From the NCBI RefSeq assembly GCF_023634805.2, contig NZ_CP106882.1:310001-374000 (forward strand): a stretch of 64,000 nucleotides of DNA, given 5' to 3'. A program made the position numbers and the translations under genes. Positions 50,852 through 59,830 of the stretch are shown here, in pieces; position 1 is the stretch's first letter, and every line of letters starts with the position of its first letter. Under the pieces are notes generated by a model, which worked only from the letters and a program-made list of their open reading frames with translations, had not been told where the DNA came from and searched no databases. The DNA comes from Comamonas endophytica. GTDB lineage: Bacteria; Pseudomonadota; Gammaproteobacteria; Burkholderiales; Burkholderiaceae_C.

Positions 50852-51670
50852 TCAGCGGTTGGCTTCCAGTACCAGCAGCGGCGCGATCTTCGCGGCCAGT
50901 TCCAGCATGGCCGGCGCGACGCTGTCGATCAGCTTGGTCGTGGACAAAGACGATTTCGCGCCGCCGCAGGTCAGCGCCATGGTCCGGTTGCCATGCGGCG
51001 AGATCACTGGCAGGCCGATCGCATTCACATCGCGGTGCGACTTGGCGAAGTTGAACACGAAGCCATGCTCGGCGTATTCCCGGAACGCTTCCTCGAGCTT
51101 GCGTTCGATGGCCGGCCACTGCGCAGCGTAATGCTGGCGCAGCTCCTCGACCGCGGCCGCGCGCACCTCGGCTGACTGCGCGGCCAGCCAGGCCCAGCCC
51201 AGCGACGAATCACCCAGCTCCAGCGCCGAGCCCACATGCATCTTCAGGTGCAGGATGCTGGGCGCCTCGATGCGCTGTACCACCACCATGTCGGTGCCAT
51301 GGCGCTCTGCCAGCGACACCGAGATGCCGAAGCGGTCGGCGACTTCGCGCATGAGCGGCAGCGCCGCGGCCGCAATGCCGGTGTGGGTGATCGCGGTGTG
51401 CCCCAGCATCAGCACCGCCGCGCCCACGCGCAGCCGGTCGGGCGACTGGCCCGGCACGAGGTAGCCGAGCTGCGACAGCGTCTTGCACAGGCGCCACACG
51501 GTGGGCTGCGGCAGCCCGGTCATGCGCGCGATCTCGCTGGTGCCCAGGTCCTTCTGCTCGGCGTTGAAGCAGCGCAGGATCGCCAGCCCGCGCGCCAGCG
51601 CGGTCACGAACAGCGGGTCTTTTTCCGCCGCGGCTGCATCGTCCGCAGGCATCTTTGTTGCTTTTTTCAT
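50852..51670 (-). CDS. IclR family regulator of the eight-gene catabolic operon
   Basis: A 272-residue IclR-type regulator. The HTH lies at about 25-80 (LGTSEIARMTGLPQPTVWRL), and the effector domain has LAERHGTDMVVVQRIEAPS and GDSSLGWAWLAAQ. It is divergent from the Bug-protein-led operon at 51817, and the 146-bp gap holds a long perfect palindrome, so it probably controls that operon. The effector is unknown. Confidence 0.9.
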   Translation of the reverse strand: MKKATKMPADDAAAAEKDPLFVTALARGLAILRCFNAEQKDLGTSEIARMTGLPQPTVWRLCKTLSQLGYLVPGQSPDRLRVGAAVLMLGHTAITHTGIAAAALPLMREVADRFGISVSLAERHGTDMVVVQRIEAPSILHLKMHVGSALELGDSSLGWAWLAAQSAEVRAAAVEELRQHYAAQWPAIERKLEEAFREYAEHGFVFNFAKSHRDVNAIGLPVISPHGNRTMALTCGGAKSSLSTTKLIDSVAPAMLELAAKIAPLLVLEANR

Positions 51671-51693: not shown

Positions 51694-51723
51694 TTGACCT
51701 ACGCCAGCACGCGGCGCAGAATA
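51694..51723 (+). promoter_or_regulatory. Probable sigma70 promoter of the eight-gene operon
   Basis: TTGACC (51694-51699) and AGAATA (51718-51723) are separated by 18 bp. Transcription would begin just ahead of the palindrome at 51737-51757. Confidence 0.5.
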
Positions 51724-51736
51724 ATTCACAGAGCGG

Positions 51737-51757
51737 TTCATCTATTCACTAGATGAA
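51737..51757. promoter_or_regulatory. Perfect palindrome in the IclR-operon divergent promoter
   Basis: TTCATCTA (51737-51744) and TAGATGAA (51750-51757) form a perfect 8-bp dyad with a 5-bp spacer just downstream of the predicted start point. It is a likely IclR operator with repressor geometry. Confidence 0.65.
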
Positions 51758-51816
51758 TTGTACAGGCAGTTTGTGTGCTCAACGTCGTGCGTCCCATTCC
51801 ATTGAAAGGCCCCACC

Positions 51817-52803
51817 GTGTCATTGTCGAAATTCGCCTCCTGTACGTTCCACCGCTGGGGCATTGCTTTTGGCCTCGCCGCCCTGAGCCCAGCCCTGGTG
51901 CTGGCCGCCGATCCCTATCCCACACGCGCCGTGACCGTGGTCAACCCCTGGGCCGCGGGCGGGCCTTCGGACAGCTTCATCCGCCCCATTGCGCAGGAAC
52001 TGAGCGCGCGCTTTGGCCAGCCGGTGGTCATCGAGAACAAGTCGGGCGCCAACGGCACCATCGGCGCGTCCTTCGTGGCGCGCGCCAAGCCCGATGGCTA
52101 CACGCTGTTCTTCTCGCACCTGAACCCGATCGCCATCGCGCCCTCGCTGCAGCCCAAGCCCAGCTACGACGCCATCAAGGATTTCGCGCCGATCTCGCTG
52201 ATCGCCTCGGGGCCGGCGGTGCTGGTGGTGCGCAGCGACTTCCCGGCGCAGAACCTGCAGGAGCTGGTGGCCTACGCCAAGGCGAATCCCGGCAAGGTGT
52301 CCTATGGCTCGGTCGGCATCGGCAGCAACACGCACCTGGCGGGATCGATGCTGGCCAACGCCGGCAAGGTGGAGATGGTGCACGTGCCCTACCGCGGCTC
52401 GGGCGCCATCCAGACCGACCTGCTGGGCGGACAGATCACCACCGCCTTTGTCAACCTCAGCGGCGCGATGGGCCTGATCCAGGAAGGCAAGCTGCGCGCG
52501 CTGGCCGTGAGCACGCTCAAGCGCTCGAGCGTGCTGCCGCAGGTACCGGCGGTGGCCGAGACGCTGCCGGGCTTCGAGGTCAACGGCTGGTATGGCCTGA
52601 TGGCGCCGGCGGGCACGCCCGCGGAGGTCATCAGGAAGCTCAACACCGAACTCGTGGCGATCCTGCGCAAGCCGGAGATCGTCGCGCGCCTCAAGGACGG
52701 CGGCATGGAGCCCGCGCCGCTCACGCCCGAGGCCTACGCCGCCATGATCAAGAGCGAGATCCCGCGCTGGGCGCTGGCCGTCAAGGCCGCCAATATCGAC
52801 TGA
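51817..52803 (+). CDS. Bug/TctC-type substrate-binding protein of the eight-gene operon
   Basis: A 328-residue periplasmic receptor and first gene of the operon. It has a signal peptide ending ALVLAAD, YPTRAVTVVNPWAAGGPSDSF, VIENKSGANGTIGASFVA and VPYRGSGAIQTDLLGG. The start is GTG at 51817 with GAAAGG 8 nt upstream; an in-frame start at 51775 lacks a ribosome site. The ligand is presumably the substrate of the downstream pathway. Confidence 0.9.
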   Translation: MSLSKFASCTFHRWGIAFGLAALSPALVLAADPYPTRAVTVVNPWAAGGPSDSFIRPIAQELSARFGQPVVIENKSGANGTIGASFVARAKPDGYTLFFSHLNPIAIAPSLQPKPSYDAIKDFAPISLIASGPAVLVVRSDFPAQNLQELVAYAKANPGKVSYGSVGIGSNTHLAGSMLANAGKVEMVHVPYRGSGAIQTDLLGGQITTAFVNLSGAMGLIQEGKLRALAVSTLKRSSVLPQVPAVAETLPGFEVNGWYGLMAPAGTPAEVIRKLNTELVAILRKPEIVARLKDGGMEPAPLTPEAYAAMIKSEIPRWALAVKAANID

Positions 52804-52906
52804 GGCCGGGCGCGCGCCGCGCCCTTCACTCCCCATTCCAACCGCATGCTTTCCCGCGCCCTGCATGGCGCGGGCGGGCCGCTGCATCCATCACCAGGAG
52901 ACAAGC

Positions 52907-53779
52907 ATGAGTTACGACATCAAGGCGATCGACACGGTCGTCAATATCTGGACCGAGGAAGTCAAGGCCATCCGCCCGCCGCGCGATGCGTTCTACGGCG
53001 GCAAGATGAAGGTCAGCGAGGACACGCTGCGCGGGCTGAGCCACGAGGACATGCTGCGCCGCATGGACGCTGCCGGTATCGAGCGCTCGTTCCTGATCGC
53101 CGCCAAGAACGGCCCCTACCAGCACCGCGCGGCCTACCACATCCCCTACGAGATGGTGGCCGAGGCCGTGAACCAGTACCCGGACCGCTTCTCCGGCCTG
53201 GCGGGCCTGGACCCGACCGAAGGCATGGCCGGCGTGCGCCTGCTGGAAAAGGGCGTGAAGGAATACGGCTTCATCGGAGCGCATTTCTACCCGCACTGGT
53301 TCGAGCTCGCGCCGGACCACGCCAAGTGGTATCCGTTCTACGCCAAGTGCGTGGAGCTCGACGTGCCGGTGCAGCTGCAGGTCGGCCAGTCGATGCTCTA
53401 CGACCCGAACTACCGCCTGCGCAGCGTCGGCCGTCCGATCTCGCTCGACGCCGTGGCCTGCGACTTCCCCGAGCTCAAGCTGATCGGCATCCACGTCGGC
53501 ATTCCATGGACCGAGGAGATGATCGCCATGGCCTGGAAGCACCCCAACGTCTACATCGGCACCGATGCGCACAGCCCCAAGTACTGGCCCGAGGCCTTCG
53601 TGCACTACATCAACACCTTCGGCCAGGACAAGGTGATCTTCGGCACCGACTTCCCGGTGCTGGACTTCGAGCGCACGCGCGCCGAGATCGAGGCGCTGGA
53701 CCTGCGCCCGATCCCCAAGAAGAAGATGCTGCGCGACAACGCGCTGCGCATCTACGGCCTGAAGGACTCCGAAGCATGA
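52907..53779 (+). CDS. Amidohydrolase-2 (ACMSD-like) fold protein lacking canonical metal ligands
   Basis: A 290-residue TIM-barrel protein of the amidohydrolase-2 family, which includes decarboxylases and hydratases of aromatic-ring fragments. The strand 1 motif, usually IDxHxH, reads AIDTVVNIW, with V11 and N13 in place of the two His. The strand-end His usually found in PVxxHxG is Gln158 (PVQLQVGQ). H196 (GIHVGIPW) and D248 (FGTDFPV) are kept. Metal binding of the usual kind is therefore doubtful. It is followed with a 4-nt overlap by an acyl-CoA ligase gene. Confidence 0.85.
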   Translation: MSYDIKAIDTVVNIWTEEVKAIRPPRDAFYGGKMKVSEDTLRGLSHEDMLRRMDAAGIERSFLIAAKNGPYQHRAAYHIPYEMVAEAVNQYPDRFSGLAGLDPTEGMAGVRLLEKGVKEYGFIGAHFYPHWFELAPDHAKWYPFYAKCVELDVPVQLQVGQSMLYDPNYRLRSVGRPISLDAVACDFPELKLIGIHVGIPWTEEMIAMAWKHPNVYIGTDAHSPKYWPEAFVHYINTFGQDKVIFGTDFPVLDFERTRAEIEALDLRPIPKKKMLRDNALRIYGLKDSEA

Positions 53780-55245
53780 CGCGGCGCATCCCCAACCTTG
53801 CCGACCAGATCGCGCTGCACGGGCGCCAGCGCCCGACGCAGGCCGCGCTGATCCAGGGCGAACGCACGCTCGACTTCCGCCAGCTCGACCGAGAGATCAC
53901 GCAGCGCGCCGCCTGGCTGCAGTCGCGCGGCGTGCAGCCCGGCGCCGTGATCGGCCTGGCGCTCAAGGACCACATCGAGCATGTGCTGATGCTGTTTGCC
54001 GTGGCGCGCGCCGGCGCCGTGGTGCTGCCGGTGGACTGCCGCTGGAAGCCCTTCGAGAAGCAGCGCGTGACCGCGCATTTCGGCGCGGCATTGACCATGG
54101 TCGAGCCCGAGGGCGCCTTCGAGGGCCAGGACTGTCAGGAGATCGACGCGGCCTGGCTCGAAGCCGTGGCCCGCGCCAAGCCACAGGGCGAGTTTCCCGA
54201 TGGCGACCGCGGGCTGGTCATGTCGTTGTCCTCGGGCACCACCGGCCGCCCCAAGGGCCCGATGCTCTCGCACCAGCGCCTGATCAACCGCTTCTACACG
54301 CAGTGGGCCGACCTGGGCTTCGGTAGCCGCGAGCGCTATGTCAACGCCACGCCGCTGTATTTCGGCGGCGGGCGCACCTTCACGCTTTCGACGCTGTATG
54401 CGGGCGGCACCGTGGTGCTGTGCCCGCCGCCCTACTCGCCCGAGGAGCTGGCCGCCGAAGTCGCGCGCAGCGAGGGCAGCATCATGTTCCTGGTGCCGAC
54501 GCTGCTGCGCCGGCTGCTCGACTGCGATGCGGCAACGCTCGCGCCGCTGCGCCGCCTCAAGACCCTGATCTCCTCGGGCTCTGCGCTCGCCCCCGAGGAA
54601 CGCAGCCAGATCCGCGAGAAGATCTGCGCCAACTTCTACGAGTACTACGCCTCCACCGAGGGCGGCGGCGTCTCTGTGCTGTCGCCCGCCGACCAGTTGC
54701 GCTACGCCGACTCGGTCGGCCGCCCGGCGCTGGGTGTCGAGGTCTCGGTGGTCGACGACCGGCACCGGCCGGTGCCCGCGGGCACCACCGGCCGCATCCG
54801 CTACCGCAGCGGCTCGGTGGCCGAGGGCTTCCACAGCGACCCCGAGGCCAGCAAGGAGGCCTTCGTCGACGGCTGGTTCTATCCCGGCGATCTGGGCGCG
54901 ATGAACGACGAGGGCTATGTGTTCCTTAAGGGCCGCTCCAAGGACATGATCATCCGCGGCGGCGTGAACATCTATCCGCAGGAGATCGAGGCCACGCTGA
55001 TGAACCACCCGGCCGTGGCCGAGGCCGCGGTCGTCGGCTGGCCCTCGCGCCAGTTCAACGAGGAGATCGCGGCCTTCGTGATCCGCAAGGCCGAGGTCGA
55101 TTCCGCGACGCTGATCGCGCTGTGCCGCGAGGCGCTCGCGCCCTACAAGGCGCCGCGCGAGATCTTCTTCGTCGACGAGCTGCCGCGCAACTCGCTGGGC
55201 AAGGTGGTCAAGGCGCAGCTGTCCGAGCAGCTGCAGCCGGTCTGA
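53776..55245 (+). CDS. AMP-forming acyl-CoA ligase
   Basis: A 489-residue ANL-superfamily ligase that activates a carboxylic acid to its CoA thioester. The P-loop is SLSSGTTGRPKGPMLSH. The adenylate motifs are YYASTEGGG, WFYPGDLG and GRSKDMIIRGGVNIYPQEIE, and the C-terminal catalytic Lys lies in PRNSLGKVVK. It overlaps the amidohydrolase gene by 4 nt and is followed 12 nt later by an acyl-CoA dehydrogenase gene, so its product is probably dehydrogenated next. Confidence 0.93.
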   Translation: MTRRIPNLADQIALHGRQRPTQAALIQGERTLDFRQLDREITQRAAWLQSRGVQPGAVIGLALKDHIEHVLMLFAVARAGAVVLPVDCRWKPFEKQRVTAHFGAALTMVEPEGAFEGQDCQEIDAAWLEAVARAKPQGEFPDGDRGLVMSLSSGTTGRPKGPMLSHQRLINRFYTQWADLGFGSRERYVNATPLYFGGGRTFTLSTLYAGGTVVLCPPPYSPEELAAEVARSEGSIMFLVPTLLRRLLDCDAATLAPLRRLKTLISSGSALAPEERSQIREKICANFYEYYASTEGGGVSVLSPADQLRYADSVGRPALGVEVSVVDDRHRPVPAGTTGRIRYRSGSVAEGFHSDPEASKEAFVDGWFYPGDLGAMNDEGYVFLKGRSKDMIIRGGVNIYPQEIEATLMNHPAVAEAAVVGWPSRQFNEEIAAFVIRKAEVDSATLIALCREALAPYKAPREIFFVDELPRNSLGKVVKAQLSEQLQPV

Positions 55246-55257
55246 GGTGCAACCGCC

Positions 55258-56403
55258 ATGATCGATTTCGAGATCCCCGAAGACGACCGCGCGCTGCTCG
55301 ACTCCATCGACCGCATGATGGCGCGCGAGTTCCCGCCCGAGGCGCTGCGCAAGGCCGACGAAGCGCACGATACGCCCTGGCATCTGCTGCCGAAGATGGG
55401 CGAGCTGGGCCTGTTCGCGCTGCCCTTTCCCGAGGAGGTGGGCGGCCTGGGCAAGGACTGGCGCAGCGCGGCGCTGGTCAACGAGCGCCTGGCCTATCAC
55501 GCGGGCATTGCCGCGACGCTGTTCGGCACCACGGTGGGCTTTGGCGGCATGTCGCTGCTCAAGTACGGCTCCGAGGCGCAAAAGCGCGAGCTGCTGCCGC
55601 GCGTGATGGAGGGCCGCGCGCGCTTCGCGCTGGCGCTGACCGAGTCGCAGGCCGGCACCGATGCCGGCGCGATCATCACGTCGGCGCGGCGCACCGCCAG
55701 CGGCTGGGTCATCAACGGCCGCAAGACCTGGATCAGCAACGCCGATGCCGCCGACTATCTGGTGGTCGCCTGCCGCACCGAACCCGGCAGCCAGGGCTCG
55801 AAGGGCGTGACCATGCTGCTGGTGCCGCGCCAGACGCCCGGCATCGGCATGACGCCGCTGGCCAAGGTCGGCCACCACTGCATGCCTTCCTGGGACATCG
55901 GCTTCGACGAGGTCGAGGTCGGCGAGGAGGCACTGATGGGCGAGGTGGGCCAGGGCTTCAAGCACACCATGTCCACGCTGCACTACAGCCGCGCGGGCCA
56001 GGCGGCGAATGCCGTCGGGCAGGCGCAGAAGGCCGTGGACATCGCGGTGGCCTATGCGAAGGAACGGCGCCAGTTCGGCCAGGCCATCGGGTCATTCCAG
56101 GCCATCCAGCACAAGCTGGCCGACATGCAGGTGCGCGTCAACCAGGCGCGGCTCGCGCTCTACCATCTGGCCTGGCTGATCGCCACCGGCCGCCCCTGCC
56201 GGCTCGAGGCGGCGCAGGCCAAGCTGGTCGCTACGGAAGCCTTCCAGTTCGTCACGCGCAATGGCCTGCAGATCATGGCCAGCGCCGGCTATTCGATGGA
56301 AAGCGACATGCAGCGCATGTGGCGCGATGCCGGGCTCTACACCTTCGGCGAGGGCAGCAGCGAGCTGCAGCGCAACCTGATCGCACGGGAGCTGGGGCTG
56401 TGA
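55258..56403 (+). CDS. Acyl-CoA dehydrogenase
   Basis: A 381-residue FAD-dependent acyl-CoA dehydrogenase that introduces an alpha-beta double bond. The signatures are LTESQAGTDAGAI, TWISNADAADYLVVAC, RRQFGQAIGSFQAIQHKLADM and a C-terminal FGEGSSELQRNLIARELG. The usual catalytic Glu near the C-terminus fits the LYTFGEGSSE segment. It ends in TGATG shared with the next start. Confidence 0.93.
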   Translation: MIDFEIPEDDRALLDSIDRMMAREFPPEALRKADEAHDTPWHLLPKMGELGLFALPFPEEVGGLGKDWRSAALVNERLAYHAGIAATLFGTTVGFGGMSLLKYGSEAQKRELLPRVMEGRARFALALTESQAGTDAGAIITSARRTASGWVINGRKTWISNADAADYLVVACRTEPGSQGSKGVTMLLVPRQTPGIGMTPLAKVGHHCMPSWDIGFDEVEVGEEALMGEVGQGFKHTMSTLHYSRAGQAANAVGQAQKAVDIAVAYAKERRQFGQAIGSFQAIQHKLADMQVRVNQARLALYHLAWLIATGRPCRLEAAQAKLVATEAFQFVTRNGLQIMASAGYSMESDMQRMWRDAGLYTFGEGSSELQRNLIARELGL

Positions 56404-57263
56404 TGAACGACCAGGCCCCAGTCCGTATCCGCCGTGGTTTCGTCGATGTCGACGAAGGCCAGATCCACTATCGCGAGGCGGGACAGCGCACGCCGGGCGT
56501 TCCCACGCTGGTGCTGATCCATGCCTCGCCGGGCTCGGCGCTGACGCTGGAGCCGCTGCTGCGCGCCTTTGGCCGGTTCCGCCACGTGATTGCCACCGAC
56601 ACGCTGGGCAATGGCGACTCGAGCCCCCTATTGGGGGAAACAGTGAAGGTAGCCCAGTTGGCCGATGCCCATCTGCGCGCGCTCGATGCGCTGGGCATCG
56701 GGCGCTTCGATCTCTATGGCACGCATACCGGCGCCAGCATTGCCAGCGAGATCGCCATCGCGCAGCCGCAGCGCGTGCGCGCGCTGGTGCTCGACGGCAT
56801 CGGCCTCTATGCCGAAGACGAGCAGGCCGAGCTGCTGGCGCACTACGTGCCGCGCGTGGAGATCGACCAGAACGGCAGCCAGATCCACCTGCTGTGGACC
56901 TTCGTGCGCGATGCCTACCTGTTCTGGCCCTGGTACCGCAAGGACGCGGCGCACCGCCGCCCGACCGGGCTGCCCGGGGCCGACGCGCTGCACGACAAGT
57001 TCGTCGAGGTGCTCAAAGCGGCGCGCAGCTTCCACCTGCCCTACCGCGCGGCCCTGGGCCACGACAAGCGCGCGCGGCTGCCGCTGCTGGCGGTGCCCAC
57101 GCTGCTGACCTGCGCCGGCGACGACATGCTGCACCAGTACCTCGAGGCACTGGGCCGGCTGGTGCCGCAGGCGCGCTGCGTGACCCATGGCGGCACGGCG
57201 TCCACCGAGGCGCTGGCCCAGACCGTCGATCTCTTCCAGCGCCATTTCGCGGCGCAGGACTGA
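56403..57263 (+). CDS. Alpha/beta hydrolase with His at the nucleophile elbow
   Basis: A 286-residue alpha/beta-hydrolase fold protein. The oxyanion-side motif is LIHASPGSA, and the strand-5 elbow, normally G-x-S-x-G, reads G106-THT-G110, putting His108 at the nucleophile position. The C-terminal segment with the usual His (CVTHGGTASTEA) is present. Such elbows occur in non-hydrolytic members, so a C-C or C-N cleaving, lyase or decarboxylase role is as likely as esterase activity. Its start overlaps the dehydrogenase stop. Confidence 0.85.
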   Translation: MNDQAPVRIRRGFVDVDEGQIHYREAGQRTPGVPTLVLIHASPGSALTLEPLLRAFGRFRHVIATDTLGNGDSSPLLGETVKVAQLADAHLRALDALGIGRFDLYGTHTGASIASEIAIAQPQRVRALVLDGIGLYAEDEQAELLAHYVPRVEIDQNGSQIHLLWTFVRDAYLFWPWYRKDAAHRRPTGLPGADALHDKFVEVLKAARSFHLPYRAALGHDKRARLPLLAVPTLLTCAGDDMLHQYLEALGRLVPQARCVTHGGTASTEALAQTVDLFQRHFAAQD

Positions 57264-57291
57264 CCCTCCCATTCCATTGAAAGCCCCCCGC

Positions 57292-57972
57292 ATGCAAAGC
57301 TCCGACAAGACCGCACGCCAGCTGTTCGAAGAATTCAAGGCCAACCCCACGCGCAAACGCTTCGGCTTCGGCAGCCGCCCGGCGCTGATCAATGTCGATC
57401 CGCAGAAGGCCTACACCGCCGTGGGCGAGTTCGCCACCGCCTACGAGACCGATCCGCGCCAGATGGAATACACCAACCAGCTCGCGGCGGCGTTCCGCGC
57501 CAAGGGCTGGCCCGTGGTGTGGACCTATGTGGCCTATATGGAGTCCGGCGAGGACTGCGGCATCTGGGGCACGCGCAGCGACACACCCGACTCGCTGCAG
57601 AACATCAAGGTCGGCAGCCGCCGCAGCGAATTTGACGACCGCCTGGTCATCGACCGCGAGCGCGACATCATCGTCAACAAACGCATGGCCTCTGCCTTCT
57701 TCGAGACCAATCTGGGCTCGATCTTCAGCTTCCACGGCATCGACACGGTGGTGGTGACCGGCGGCTCGACCTCGGGCTGCGTGCGCGCCACGGTGGTGGA
57801 CAGCCTGCAGCGCAGTTTCCGCACCGTCGTCCCCGAGGAATGCGTGGCCGACAAGCACGAGAGCCCGCATTTCGCCAACCTCTACGACATGGCGGTGAAA
57901 TACGCCGATGTGCTGCCCGTGGCCGAGGTGCTGGAGCAGCTTTCTCGGGTGCCAGCCAAGGTCAAGCCATGA
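57292..57972 (+). CDS. Isochorismatase-family cysteine hydrolase (amidase-like)
   Basis: A 226-residue cysteine hydrolase. The triad is visible as D36 (LINVDPQKAY), K130 (VNKRMASAF) and C163 (GSTSGCVRAT), matching N-carbamoylsarcosine amidase and maleamate amidase relatives that cleave amide or ureide bonds. It overlaps the next gene by 4 nt, within the catabolic operon, so it probably releases ammonia or carbamate from a nitrogen-containing intermediate. Confidence 0.9.
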   Translation: MQSSDKTARQLFEEFKANPTRKRFGFGSRPALINVDPQKAYTAVGEFATAYETDPRQMEYTNQLAAAFRAKGWPVVWTYVAYMESGEDCGIWGTRSDTPDSLQNIKVGSRRSEFDDRLVIDRERDIIVNKRMASAFFETNLGSIFSFHGIDTVVVTGGSTSGCVRATVVDSLQRSFRTVVPEECVADKHESPHFANLYDMAVKYADVLPVAEVLEQLSRVPAKVKP

Positions 57973-58883
57973 AGCGCGATCCCGGTTTCTACGACTACCT
58001 GCCCTACCAGGGCCGCCCGCAGATCCGCTGGCCTGGCGGCGCGCGCGTCGCCTTCTGGGTCGCGCCCAATGTCGAGTTCTACGAGCTGAACCCGCCGCGC
58101 AACCCGGCGCGTGCCGCCTGGGCGCGCCCCGCGCCCGACGTGCAGAACTACTCCTACCGCGACTACGGCAACCGCGTGGGCTTCTGGCGCATGCTGGAGA
58201 CGATGAAGCGCTGCAACGTGCGCGGCAGCGTGTCGCTCAACGTGGCGATGTGCGAGCACCACCCGGAGGTGATCCAGGCCTGCGCCGACAACGGCTGGGA
58301 GTTCTACTCCCACGGCACCTACAACACGCGCTACCTGATGGGCATGGACGAGGCGCAGGAGCGCGCCGTCATCCAGGACTCGATCGACACCATCCGCAAG
58401 CACACCGGGCAGAAGCTCGACGGCTGGCTCGCGCCCGCGCTGACCTATACCGATCGCACCATGGACCTGGTGGCGGAAATGGGACTGACCTATGTGTGCG
58501 ACCTGTTCCACGACGACCAGCCGGTGCCGGTGAAGACGCGCTCGGGGCGCCTGACCAGCATTCCCTATTCGCTGGAGATGAACGACACCATCGTCTACAA
58601 CGTCAACCAGGTCTCGCCGCGGCGCTACGGCGACATCATCAAGCGCCAGTTCGACCAGCTCTACCGCGAGGGCGAGCATTCCGGCACGGTGATGTGCATT
58701 CCGCTGCACCCTTATCTCATCGGCCAGCCCTACCGCCTGGCGGCCTTTGAGGAGGCGCTGCAGTACATCACCGGCCACGACAAGGTCTGGCTGGCCACCG
58801 GCCGCGAGATCGCGCAGTACTACAACGAACACTACTACGACGCCTTTGCCCAGGCGGCGCACCCCGTCGGAGAGGCCCCATGA
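57969..58883 (+). CDS. Polysaccharide-deacetylase-family hydrolase, first copy (PuuE/cyclic imidase-like)
   Basis: A 304-residue NodB-fold protein of the PuuE-like group, which includes allantoinases and cyclic imide hydrolases. Recognisable segments are DYGNRVGFWRMLETM, then GWEFYSHGTYNTRYLMGM with H115 in the SHG motif, DGWLAPALTYTDRTMDL and CIPLHPYLIGQPYR. No signal peptide is present, so it acts in the cytosol on a small molecule rather than a polymer. It overlaps its neighbours on both sides by 4 nt. Confidence 0.88.
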   Translation: MKRDPGFYDYLPYQGRPQIRWPGGARVAFWVAPNVEFYELNPPRNPARAAWARPAPDVQNYSYRDYGNRVGFWRMLETMKRCNVRGSVSLNVAMCEHHPEVIQACADNGWEFYSHGTYNTRYLMGMDEAQERAVIQDSIDTIRKHTGQKLDGWLAPALTYTDRTMDLVAEMGLTYVCDLFHDDQPVPVKTRSGRLTSIPYSLEMNDTIVYNVNQVSPRRYGDIIKRQFDQLYREGEHSGTVMCIPLHPYLIGQPYRLAAFEEALQYITGHDKVWLATGREIAQYYNEHYYDAFAQAAHPVGEAP

Positions 58884-59830
58884 GCACGCTGCCCGAAGAT
58901 TACCTGGACTACCCGCTGCGCCGCTACGGCATGGACCATGCGCGCTACGACTGGTCGATGCTGCCCCAGCGCCCGCCCGTGGCCTGGCCCGATGAGGCGC
59001 GCATCGCGCTGTGGATCGTGCCCGCGCTCGAATGGTTTCCGCTCGACATGCAGGGCAAGCCCTTCAAGCCGCCGGGCGCGATGCAGACCGCCTACCCGGA
59101 TTTGCGCCACTACACGCTGCGCGACTACGGCAACCGCGTGGGCATCTTCCGCATCATGCAGGCGCTCGAACGCCACGGCCTGCGCGCCAGCGTGGCGATG
59201 AACGCGGCCGTGGCCGTGCGTTATCCGGCGCTGGTGCAAAGCGTCGTGCAGCGCGGCTGGGAGGTGATTGCCAACGGCCTGGACATGGACCATCTGCACC
59301 ATGGCGGCATGGCCGAGGAGGACGAGCGCGCGCTGATCGCGCAGACGCTCGGGATCCTGCGCCAGGCCAGCGGCCAGCCGGTGACGGGCTGGCTGTCGCC
59401 CGCCAAGTCGCAGTCCTGGAACACCCCGGACCTGCTGCGCGAGGCCGGCATCGAGTACGCCTGCGACTGGGTCAACGACGACATGCCCTACGCGATGCGC
59501 ACGCGCGCCGGCACGCTGCATGCGATGCCGCACCCGATCGACATCGACGACGCGACCATCCTGGTGCAGAACCACCACACGGAGGACGACTTCCGCGACC
59601 AGCTGATCGACCAGTTCGACCTGCTGTACCGCGAAGCGCGGCCCGGCGACGGCCGCGTCATGGCGATTTCGCTGCACCCCTGGGTGAGCGGCCAGCCCTA
59701 CCGCATCCGCGCGCTGGAGGAGGCGCTGGCGCATATCGTGCGGCATCGCGGGGTGTGGTCGGCGACCGGGGGGGAGATCCTTGAAGCCTGGAAAGCCACG
59801 CAGGTCGATGGAAGGAGCGTTGCACTCTGA
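58880..59830 (+). CDS. Polysaccharide-deacetylase-family hydrolase, second copy with altered metal motif
   Basis: A 316-residue paralogue of the preceding protein, last in the operon. It shares DYGNRVGIFRIMQAL, GWLSPAKSQSWNTPDL and ISLHPWVSGQPYRI. The SHG motif of the first copy is replaced by N132-G (IANGLDMDHLHH), and His residues further on (H138, H140) could substitute or the site may be inactive. The two copies may form a hetero-oligomer or act on successive substrates. A deletion or gene-fusion origin is not indicated; both are full length. Confidence 0.87.
   Translation: MSTLPEDYLDYPLRRYGMDHARYDWSMLPQRPPVAWPDEARIALWIVPALEWFPLDMQGKPFKPPGAMQTAYPDLRHYTLRDYGNRVGIFRIMQALERHGLRASVAMNAAVAVRYPALVQSVVQRGWEVIANGLDMDHLHHGGMAEEDERALIAQTLGILRQASGQPVTGWLSPAKSQSWNTPDLLREAGIEYACDWVNDDMPYAMRTRAGTLHAMPHPIDIDDATILVQNHHTEDDFRDQLIDQFDLLYREARPGDGRVMAISLHPWVSGQPYRIRALEEALAHIVRHRGVWSATGGEILEAWKATQVDGRSVAL

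Follow-up and report, generated by a model that had tools for sequence, protein, structure and literature searches.

The window analysed here is a 64,000-nucleotide stretch of Comamonas endophytica DNA from contig NZ_CP106882.1 (hereafter C2), and towards its end eight genes lie on one strand, with a divergent gene for an IclR-family regulator upstream. From sequence comparison we consider it somewhat probable that this operon holds two modules under one IclR-type regulator, and that its last three genes, CysH, Pde1 and Pde2 (the trio), form a maleimide-hydrolysis unit, whose product would then be hydrated, cleaved and activated with coenzyme A (CoA). Gene content, conservation, linkage and intact catalytic residues were observed, and from them we infer all the reactions and the substrate.

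A conserved three-gene core

The trio closes the operon and comprises the following genes:

57292..57972, plus strand: CysH, isochorismatase-type cysteine hydrolase, predicted half-amidase, core gene 1
57969..58883, plus strand: Pde1, PuuE-like NodB-fold hydrolase, predicted imidase, core gene 2 (Polysacc_deac_1)
58880..59830, plus strand: Pde2, PuuE-like, paralogue of Pde1, core gene 3 (Polysacc_deac_1; PDB 3cl6, 98 bits)

We compared it with 80 named trio loci, the best 80 of at least 575 relatives; these favour close relatives and are not independent, many of them coming from related metagenome-assembled genomes (MAGs). CysH stands immediately 5' of Pde1 in 74 of the 75 loci with room for it and Pde2 immediately 3' of Pde1 in 76 of 79, and CysH-Pde1-Pde2 is a conserved three-gene core on one strand. 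A previous sequence-only reading of this DNA had called for a search for the same neighbourhood elsewhere: the synteny holds for the trio, while that of all eight families was found at no other locus. The complete trio was present in none of the loci labelled as Bacteroidota-type (L123, L124 and L138); in two of them (L123 and L138, from MAGs with the labels Cytophagales and Bernardetiaceae) CysH-Pde1 has no adjoining Pde2. Closer to home, none of 36 same-genus genomes has a close Pde1 (best E 1.9e-25).

CysH is predicted to be a half-amidase. Its top PDB matches are 4l07 and 4l08 (113 and 109 bits), which we take to be maleamate amidase, followed by the N-carbamoylsarcosine amidase 26st (107 bits), a moderate similarity overall (85-113 bits). 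D36, K130 and C163, presumably the catalytic Asp, Lys and Cys positions of the family, are invariant in 75 of 75 aligned sequences, as expected of an isochorismatase-type amidase. The Pde proteins match the PuuE/HP0310-like hydrolase fold well over ordinary CE4 deacetylases, and their scores against the PuuE allantoinase model TIGR03212 (142.8 bits for Pde1, 125.6 for Pde2) stay below its cut-off of 424.6. At the position of Pde1 H115, Pde2 carries Asn in 39 of 74 sequences (the window included), His in 30 and another residue in five. The context and homology of this conserved unit support the earlier suggestion that the deacetylase-fold pair would open a ring and the cysteine hydrolase deaminate the product.

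Genes linked to the core in relatives

To describe the surroundings of the core, we counted gene families within up to 10 kb of the trio in the 80 loci, with 20 stretches of 20 kb as controls, mostly from Burkholderiales relatives and without phylum matching. LeuC, LeuD and a methylisocitrate-lyase-like enzyme of the phosphoenolpyruvate (PEP)-mutase/isocitrate lyase (ICL) family were each found in 23 of 80 loci, a flavocytochrome-c-like FAD oxidoreductase in 18, an Asp/Glu/hydantoin-racemase homologue in 28, MmgE/PrpD in 27 and glutaryl-CoA dehydrogenase (GCDH) in four; none of the 20 control stretches had any of these seven partner families. Most of the Rhizobium-type loci (L125-L135) read CysH-Pde1-Pde2-LeuC-LeuD-Liv transporter-lyase-FAD enzyme, and at L102 the choice of start codon decides whether the LeuD and CysH frames share 4 nt or are separated by 5 nt. 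All 25 lyases compared carry KRCGH (22) or KKCGH (3), and two that were scored against prpB (307 and 280 bits, under the cut-off of 354) are predicted to be methylisocitrate-lyase-like. A Lys or Arg is found in the LeuD loop in 24 of 25 sequences; we regard it as a weak mark of a substrate carboxylate, one that ordinary bacterial LeuD may share.

Seven of 86 loci (the 80 loci, the window stretch and five further loci) have a GCDH-type gene close to the trio; six of the seven show the exact stretch SGYRS-x-M-x-VQ and L120 has the variant SGLRSMVSVQ. GCDH at E 1e-90 is found in 28 of 30 trio genomes, so its presence alone is no evidence and it is its position that counts. On the predicted conjugative plasmid p1 of Burkholderia plantarii (L166, NZ_CP066800.1, 19215-44126), a CaiB-GCDH-ETF-ETF-porin-lyase-FAD-LeuD-LeuC-GntR series is divergent from a trio that is 87% (CysH), 88% (Pde1) and 80% (Pde2) identical to that of the window. 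Chitinasiproducens palmae has the same gene set, with the whole chain in one cluster, and the sole GCDH of its genome at E 1e-90 sits there.

Some loci carry additional genes. After the B. plantarii cluster come an IS6 transposase and Tn7-like genes (annotated as Mu transposase C-terminal, TniB and TniQ). In Burkholderia sp. SRS-W-2-2016 (L059:12626-15563), a VanA-type Rieske oxygenase, a short-chain dehydrogenase/reductase and a Fer2-bearing reductase come after the trio and a racemase homologue, and are perhaps a ring-oxidising front end. Comamonadaceae-type loci, many of them MAGs (L061, L063-L066, L070-L073, L087, L089-L091), show an enlarged cluster in which extra Pde proteins are joined by varying sets of a second isochorismatase, a racemase homologue, a PhyH dioxygenase, a SnoaL protein, MmgE/PrpD and a Liv transporter.

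A proposed route for substituted maleimides

The linkage of the trio in relatives to LeuC/LeuD-type hydratases and methylisocitrate-lyase-like enzymes points to a substituted maleimide as the most likely imide, and its hydrolysis yields a cis-configured maleate, the geometry used by aconitase-family hydratases. Pde1, probably with Pde2, would convert the cyclic imide to a half-amide, and CysH would split this into a dicarboxylate and ammonia. A LeuC/LeuD-type hydratase would then hydrate the substituted maleate, and a methylisocitrate-lyase-type enzyme would cleave the resulting methyl-branched hydroxy acid into pyruvate (a 2-oxo acid) and a carboxylic acid, which would be CoA-activated and dehydrogenated. 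The direct CoA activation of the ring product that had been proposed before finds no support: the relatives appear to hydrate (with LeuCD) and cleave the dicarboxylate first.

The identity of the released acid would depend on the side chain. A carboxyethyl group would give glutarate, which explains the GCDH and CoA-transferase in clusters, and glutarate is probably the acid released in those relatives. An ethyl group would give butyrate, which a general ligase and acyl-CoA dehydrogenase like those of the window could process. Hematinic acid, the methyl-carboxyethyl maleimide left as a tetrapyrrole fragment by oxidative chlorophyll and heme breakdown, is the best-fitting natural substrate and our prime candidate. 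It would pass from imide to amide to methyl-homoaconitate, which upon hydration and cleavage would give pyruvate and glutarate, the latter continuing through glutaryl-CoA to crotonyl-CoA. That the trio, LeuCD, the lyase and GCDH form a bacterial hematinic acid pathway, with the window operon as a variant for hematinic acid or a sister maleimide, is a tentative proposal that we hold to be possible rather than probable.

In the window genome, the hydratase and lyase would have to be supplied in trans. The genome (4.49 Mb, three contigs) carries on contig C1 a Bug-LeuC2-LeuD2-lyase series followed by a GntR gene, with LeuC2, LeuD2 and the lyase at 2607598-2610265. This LeuC2 shares 67% identity with the LeuC2 proteins near the trio at L059 and L051, and the lyase is 63% (L059) and 68% (L051) identical to its trio-linked counterparts there. 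LeuC2 at E 1e-60 is found in none of 22 same-genus genomes. In the order as a whole, 20 of 399 genomes have LeuC2: five of ten with the trio vs 15 of 389 without it (Fisher p 4e-5 by genome and 0.012 by genus, kinship being ignored). A CaiB-GCDH pair lies about 12-14 kb from the C1 LeuC2 locus, perhaps by chance. Contig C2, which bears the operon (647,507 bases), shows pairs of equal-scoring matches 592.6 kb apart; a circular replicon of about 593 kb whose contig ends overlap is the probable explanation, and the overlap may inflate the contamination value of 4.93.

Two modules behind one putative regulator

Upstream of the trio are the regulator gene, a palindrome and five genes that would serve the uptake and activation of organic acids:

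50852..51670, minus strand: IclR-family regulator, divergent (Pfam IclR_C 66.9 bits, HTH_IclR 61.1 bits)
51737..51757, strandless: perfect 8-5-8 palindrome, presumed operator, TTCATCTA-ttcac-TAGATGAA
51817..52803 (possible start 51775), plus strand: Bug/TctC periplasmic binding protein (Pfam TctC 254.6 bits)
52907..53779, plus strand: AmH2, amidohydrolase-2 family (Pfam Amidohydro_2 153 bits)
53776..55245, plus strand: acyl-CoA ligase (Pfam AMP-binding 220 bits)
55258..56403, plus strand: acyl-CoA dehydrogenase, ACAD (Pfam Acyl-CoA_dh)
56403..57263, plus strand: alpha/beta hydrolase, abH (Pfam Abhydrolase_1 52 bits)

The open reading frames and Pfam matches agree with the sequence-only reading on the eight co-directional genes and their families, the overlaps and gaps, the divergent IclR gene and the perfect palindrome. 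Distances between consecutive genes are 103, -4, 12, -1, 28, -4 and -4 bp, i.e. four of the seven junctions are overlaps of 1-4 nt and all gaps except the first are below 30 bp. The palindrome has one match in the window at up to three mismatches (0.02 expected) and a single exact copy in the whole genome, where three further sites have three mismatches each vs two for a reversed-pattern control. Given this uniqueness, it looks like a putative operator of the window operon alone, presumably an IclR site. The C1 LeuC2 locus has no copy of the palindrome, and the idea that the two loci share a regulon site was discarded.

A module of the same kind is found on plasmid 3 of Variovorax sp. PBL-E5 (NZ_LR594673.1) as ACAD-Bug-abH-AmH2-ligase with a divergent IclR gene, and in the same annotated order on plasmid 4 of Variovorax SRS16 (NZ_LR594669.1); the trio was not seen in the 18.9-kb stretches around either. 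Identities of the window proteins to their counterparts on the PBL-E5 plasmid are 59% for IclR, 63% for Bug, 84% for AmH2, 70% for the ligase adjoining AmH2, 61% for abH and only 32% for ACAD. AmH2 and the ligase also occur near isochorismatase-type hydrolases on one Roseomonas and one Rhizobium plasmid. By eye, AmH2 reads IDTVVNIW (IDIVVNIW in its G275 orthologue) at the position of the N-terminal metal motif, which we assume to be HxH in this family; the motif thus appears lost, and AmH2 may be a metal-poor amidohydrolase with unusual chemistry. In an alignment with six GCDH-type relatives, all of which retain the Arg, the window ACAD has GIAATLFGTT in place of the Arg-bearing SGYRSxMSVQ stretch, presumably a functional mark of GCDH, and we rejected this role for it on account of the missing arginine.

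AmH2 at E 1e-60 is found in five of 399 genomes, four of which also carry the trio, vs ten of 399 genomes overall (Fisher p 1e-6 by genome and, with three of three AmH2 genera, 3e-5 by genus, again ignoring kinship). The two are neighbours in the window genome only and lie on separate contigs in the other three. The two co-occurring modules thus appear to have been fused locally in the window operon. We rejected the supposition that the eight genes make up a single conserved pathway: AmH2, abH and IclR fall below 150 bits in all 80 trio loci, the ligase reaches 150 bits in three (28-29% identity) and ACAD in one (28%), in a near-match search none of the plasmid records spans 80% of the operon DNA, and the eight-family arrangement was found nowhere else among the trio loci and plasmid records.

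Weighing the alternatives

Several observations weigh against a maleimide-hydrolysis route. Pde1 is closer to PuuE allantoinase, a cyclic-ureide enzyme, than to HP0310, and the match of CysH to N-carbamoylsarcosine amidase nearly equals that to 4l07/4l08. In 53 of the 80 loci the stretch covered has neither LeuC nor LeuD nor the lyase, and 23 have none of the seven partner families, many contigs being short; LeuC2, in turn, is present in the 15 trio-free genomes mentioned above. In the window genome the hydratase and lyase genes lie away from the operon, the FAD oxidoreductase was not found at E 1e-40 (an empty answer that shows little) and the operon's own ACAD has no GCDH arginine, which together suggest that the window operon may act on a different substrate from that of its relatives.

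The first two of these points would suit a hydantoin (cyclic ureide) pathway, in which Pde1/Pde2 would be the hydantoinase, CysH an N-carbamoyl hydrolase and the racemase homologue a racemase, with an amino acid as the product: the nearest PDB chains to Pde1 are of PuuE type, CysH is close to N-carbamoylsarcosine amidase, and 28 of 80 loci have a racemase homologue close to the trio. Yet such a pathway offers no role for the LeuCD hydratases, methylisocitrate-lyase-like enzymes and GCDH that are linked to the trio, the top CysH matches are those taken above to be maleamate amidase, the allantoinase model scores 143 and 126 against 425 bits, and the Asp/Glu racemase family also contains maleate isomerases. 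We find it unlikely. Less likely still is that the trio acts on a six-membered imide (of the glutarimide, glutaconimide or citrazinate type) and forms directly a glutarate or tricarboxylate, the former to be used by GCDH. The GCDH-type genes near seven of 86 loci agree with this; a glutarimide, however, has no need of a linked LeuCD and lyase, and citrazinate would lead to cis-aconitate, for which core enzymes exist. A precedent for six-membered rings is at hand in HxnM, which opens 3-hydroxypiperidine-2,6-dione, and HxnN, which deaminates the product, in the part of the source available (PMC9304392).

It would be similarly surprising if the eight genes were a chance collection, with the trio riding behind a separately acting Bug/AmH2/ligase module. 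In favour of such a collection, AmH2, abH and IclR do not reach 150 bits at any of the 80 trio loci, and the 18.9-kb Variovorax stretches are trio-free; on the other hand, the genes overlap behind a single intergenic region bearing the palindrome, and the trio is in four of five AmH2 genomes vs ten of 399 overall, though on separate contigs in three. The fusion of an acid-activation module with a maleimide-hydrolysis unit remains the reading that we lean towards.

Implications

Chlorophyll production and degradation are on a scale of 10^12 kg per year, according to PMC7318184, where hematinic acid was detected in leaves. The other maleimides were not detected in the same leaves, but the study points to older findings of both hematinic acid and maleimides in lake sediments and in the senescent leaves of barley and radish. 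Judged by titles and the opening lines of abstracts, searches for hematinic acid in the open-licence PMC literature turned up no bacterial route for it. The sequence-only reading had recognised no known pathway in this operon, and searches of the same literature, seen mostly as titles and abstract starts, likewise gave no recognisable match to the neighbourhood; judged from listings, nothing matching came from the literature on citrazinate, dimethylmaleate enzymes, imidase/half-amidase pairs or homoaconitase loop motifs. A conserved gene set with a stepwise product prediction makes the question of bacterial hematinic acid use directly testable. If the proposal is true, it would give a function to genes publicly annotated as polysaccharide deacetylase and isochorismatase family, and the hematinic acid pathway would mirror the 2-methylcitrate cycle plus one carbon and, in one species or more, would be carried by a plasmid predicted to be conjugative.

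Comparison with known systems

In the 2-methylcitrate cycle, and with the dimethylmaleate hydratase and dimethylmalate lyase of Eubacterium barkeri, an aconitase-family hydratase and a PEP-mutase/ICL-family lyase act on methyl-branched acids. The same two families are found near the trio; unlike those systems, the trio-linked set goes together with predicted imide hydrolysis and, among the relatives, sometimes with GCDH. The PuuE allantoinase (3cl6) differs from Pde1 and Pde2, which stay under the TIGR03212 cut-off, are two divergent tandem paralogues and have LeuCD, the lyase, MmgE/PrpD and others as recurring partners. CysH shares with the maleamate and N-carbamoylsarcosine amidases (26st and 1nba; 3ot4 and 3uao we take to be maleamate amidases) the cysteine hydrolase family and the retained Asp, Lys and Cys, and is set apart by its moderate similarity and its pairing with Pde1 in 74 of 75 loci. 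The Variovorax PBL-E5 module resembles the window in IclR, Bug, abH, AmH2 and ligase (59-84% identity) and departs from it in ACAD (32%), and the Variovorax modules are trio-free in the stretches examined.

The nearest precedent for an imidase and amidase reading of the trio comes from fungal nicotinate breakdown, where, in the part of PMC9304392 available, the cyclic imidase HxnM, whose closest structural relative is HP0310, opens 3-hydroxypiperidine-2,6-dione and the amidase HxnN deaminates the product. As would be the case for the trio, a PuuE/HP0310-related imidase is followed by an amidase, and ammonia and a dicarboxylate are released (PMC9304392, same part). The imide of that pathway is six-membered, the part of the source available mentions neither a Pde pair nor linkage to LeuCD, lyase or GCDH, and Pde1 is nearer to PuuE than to HP0310.

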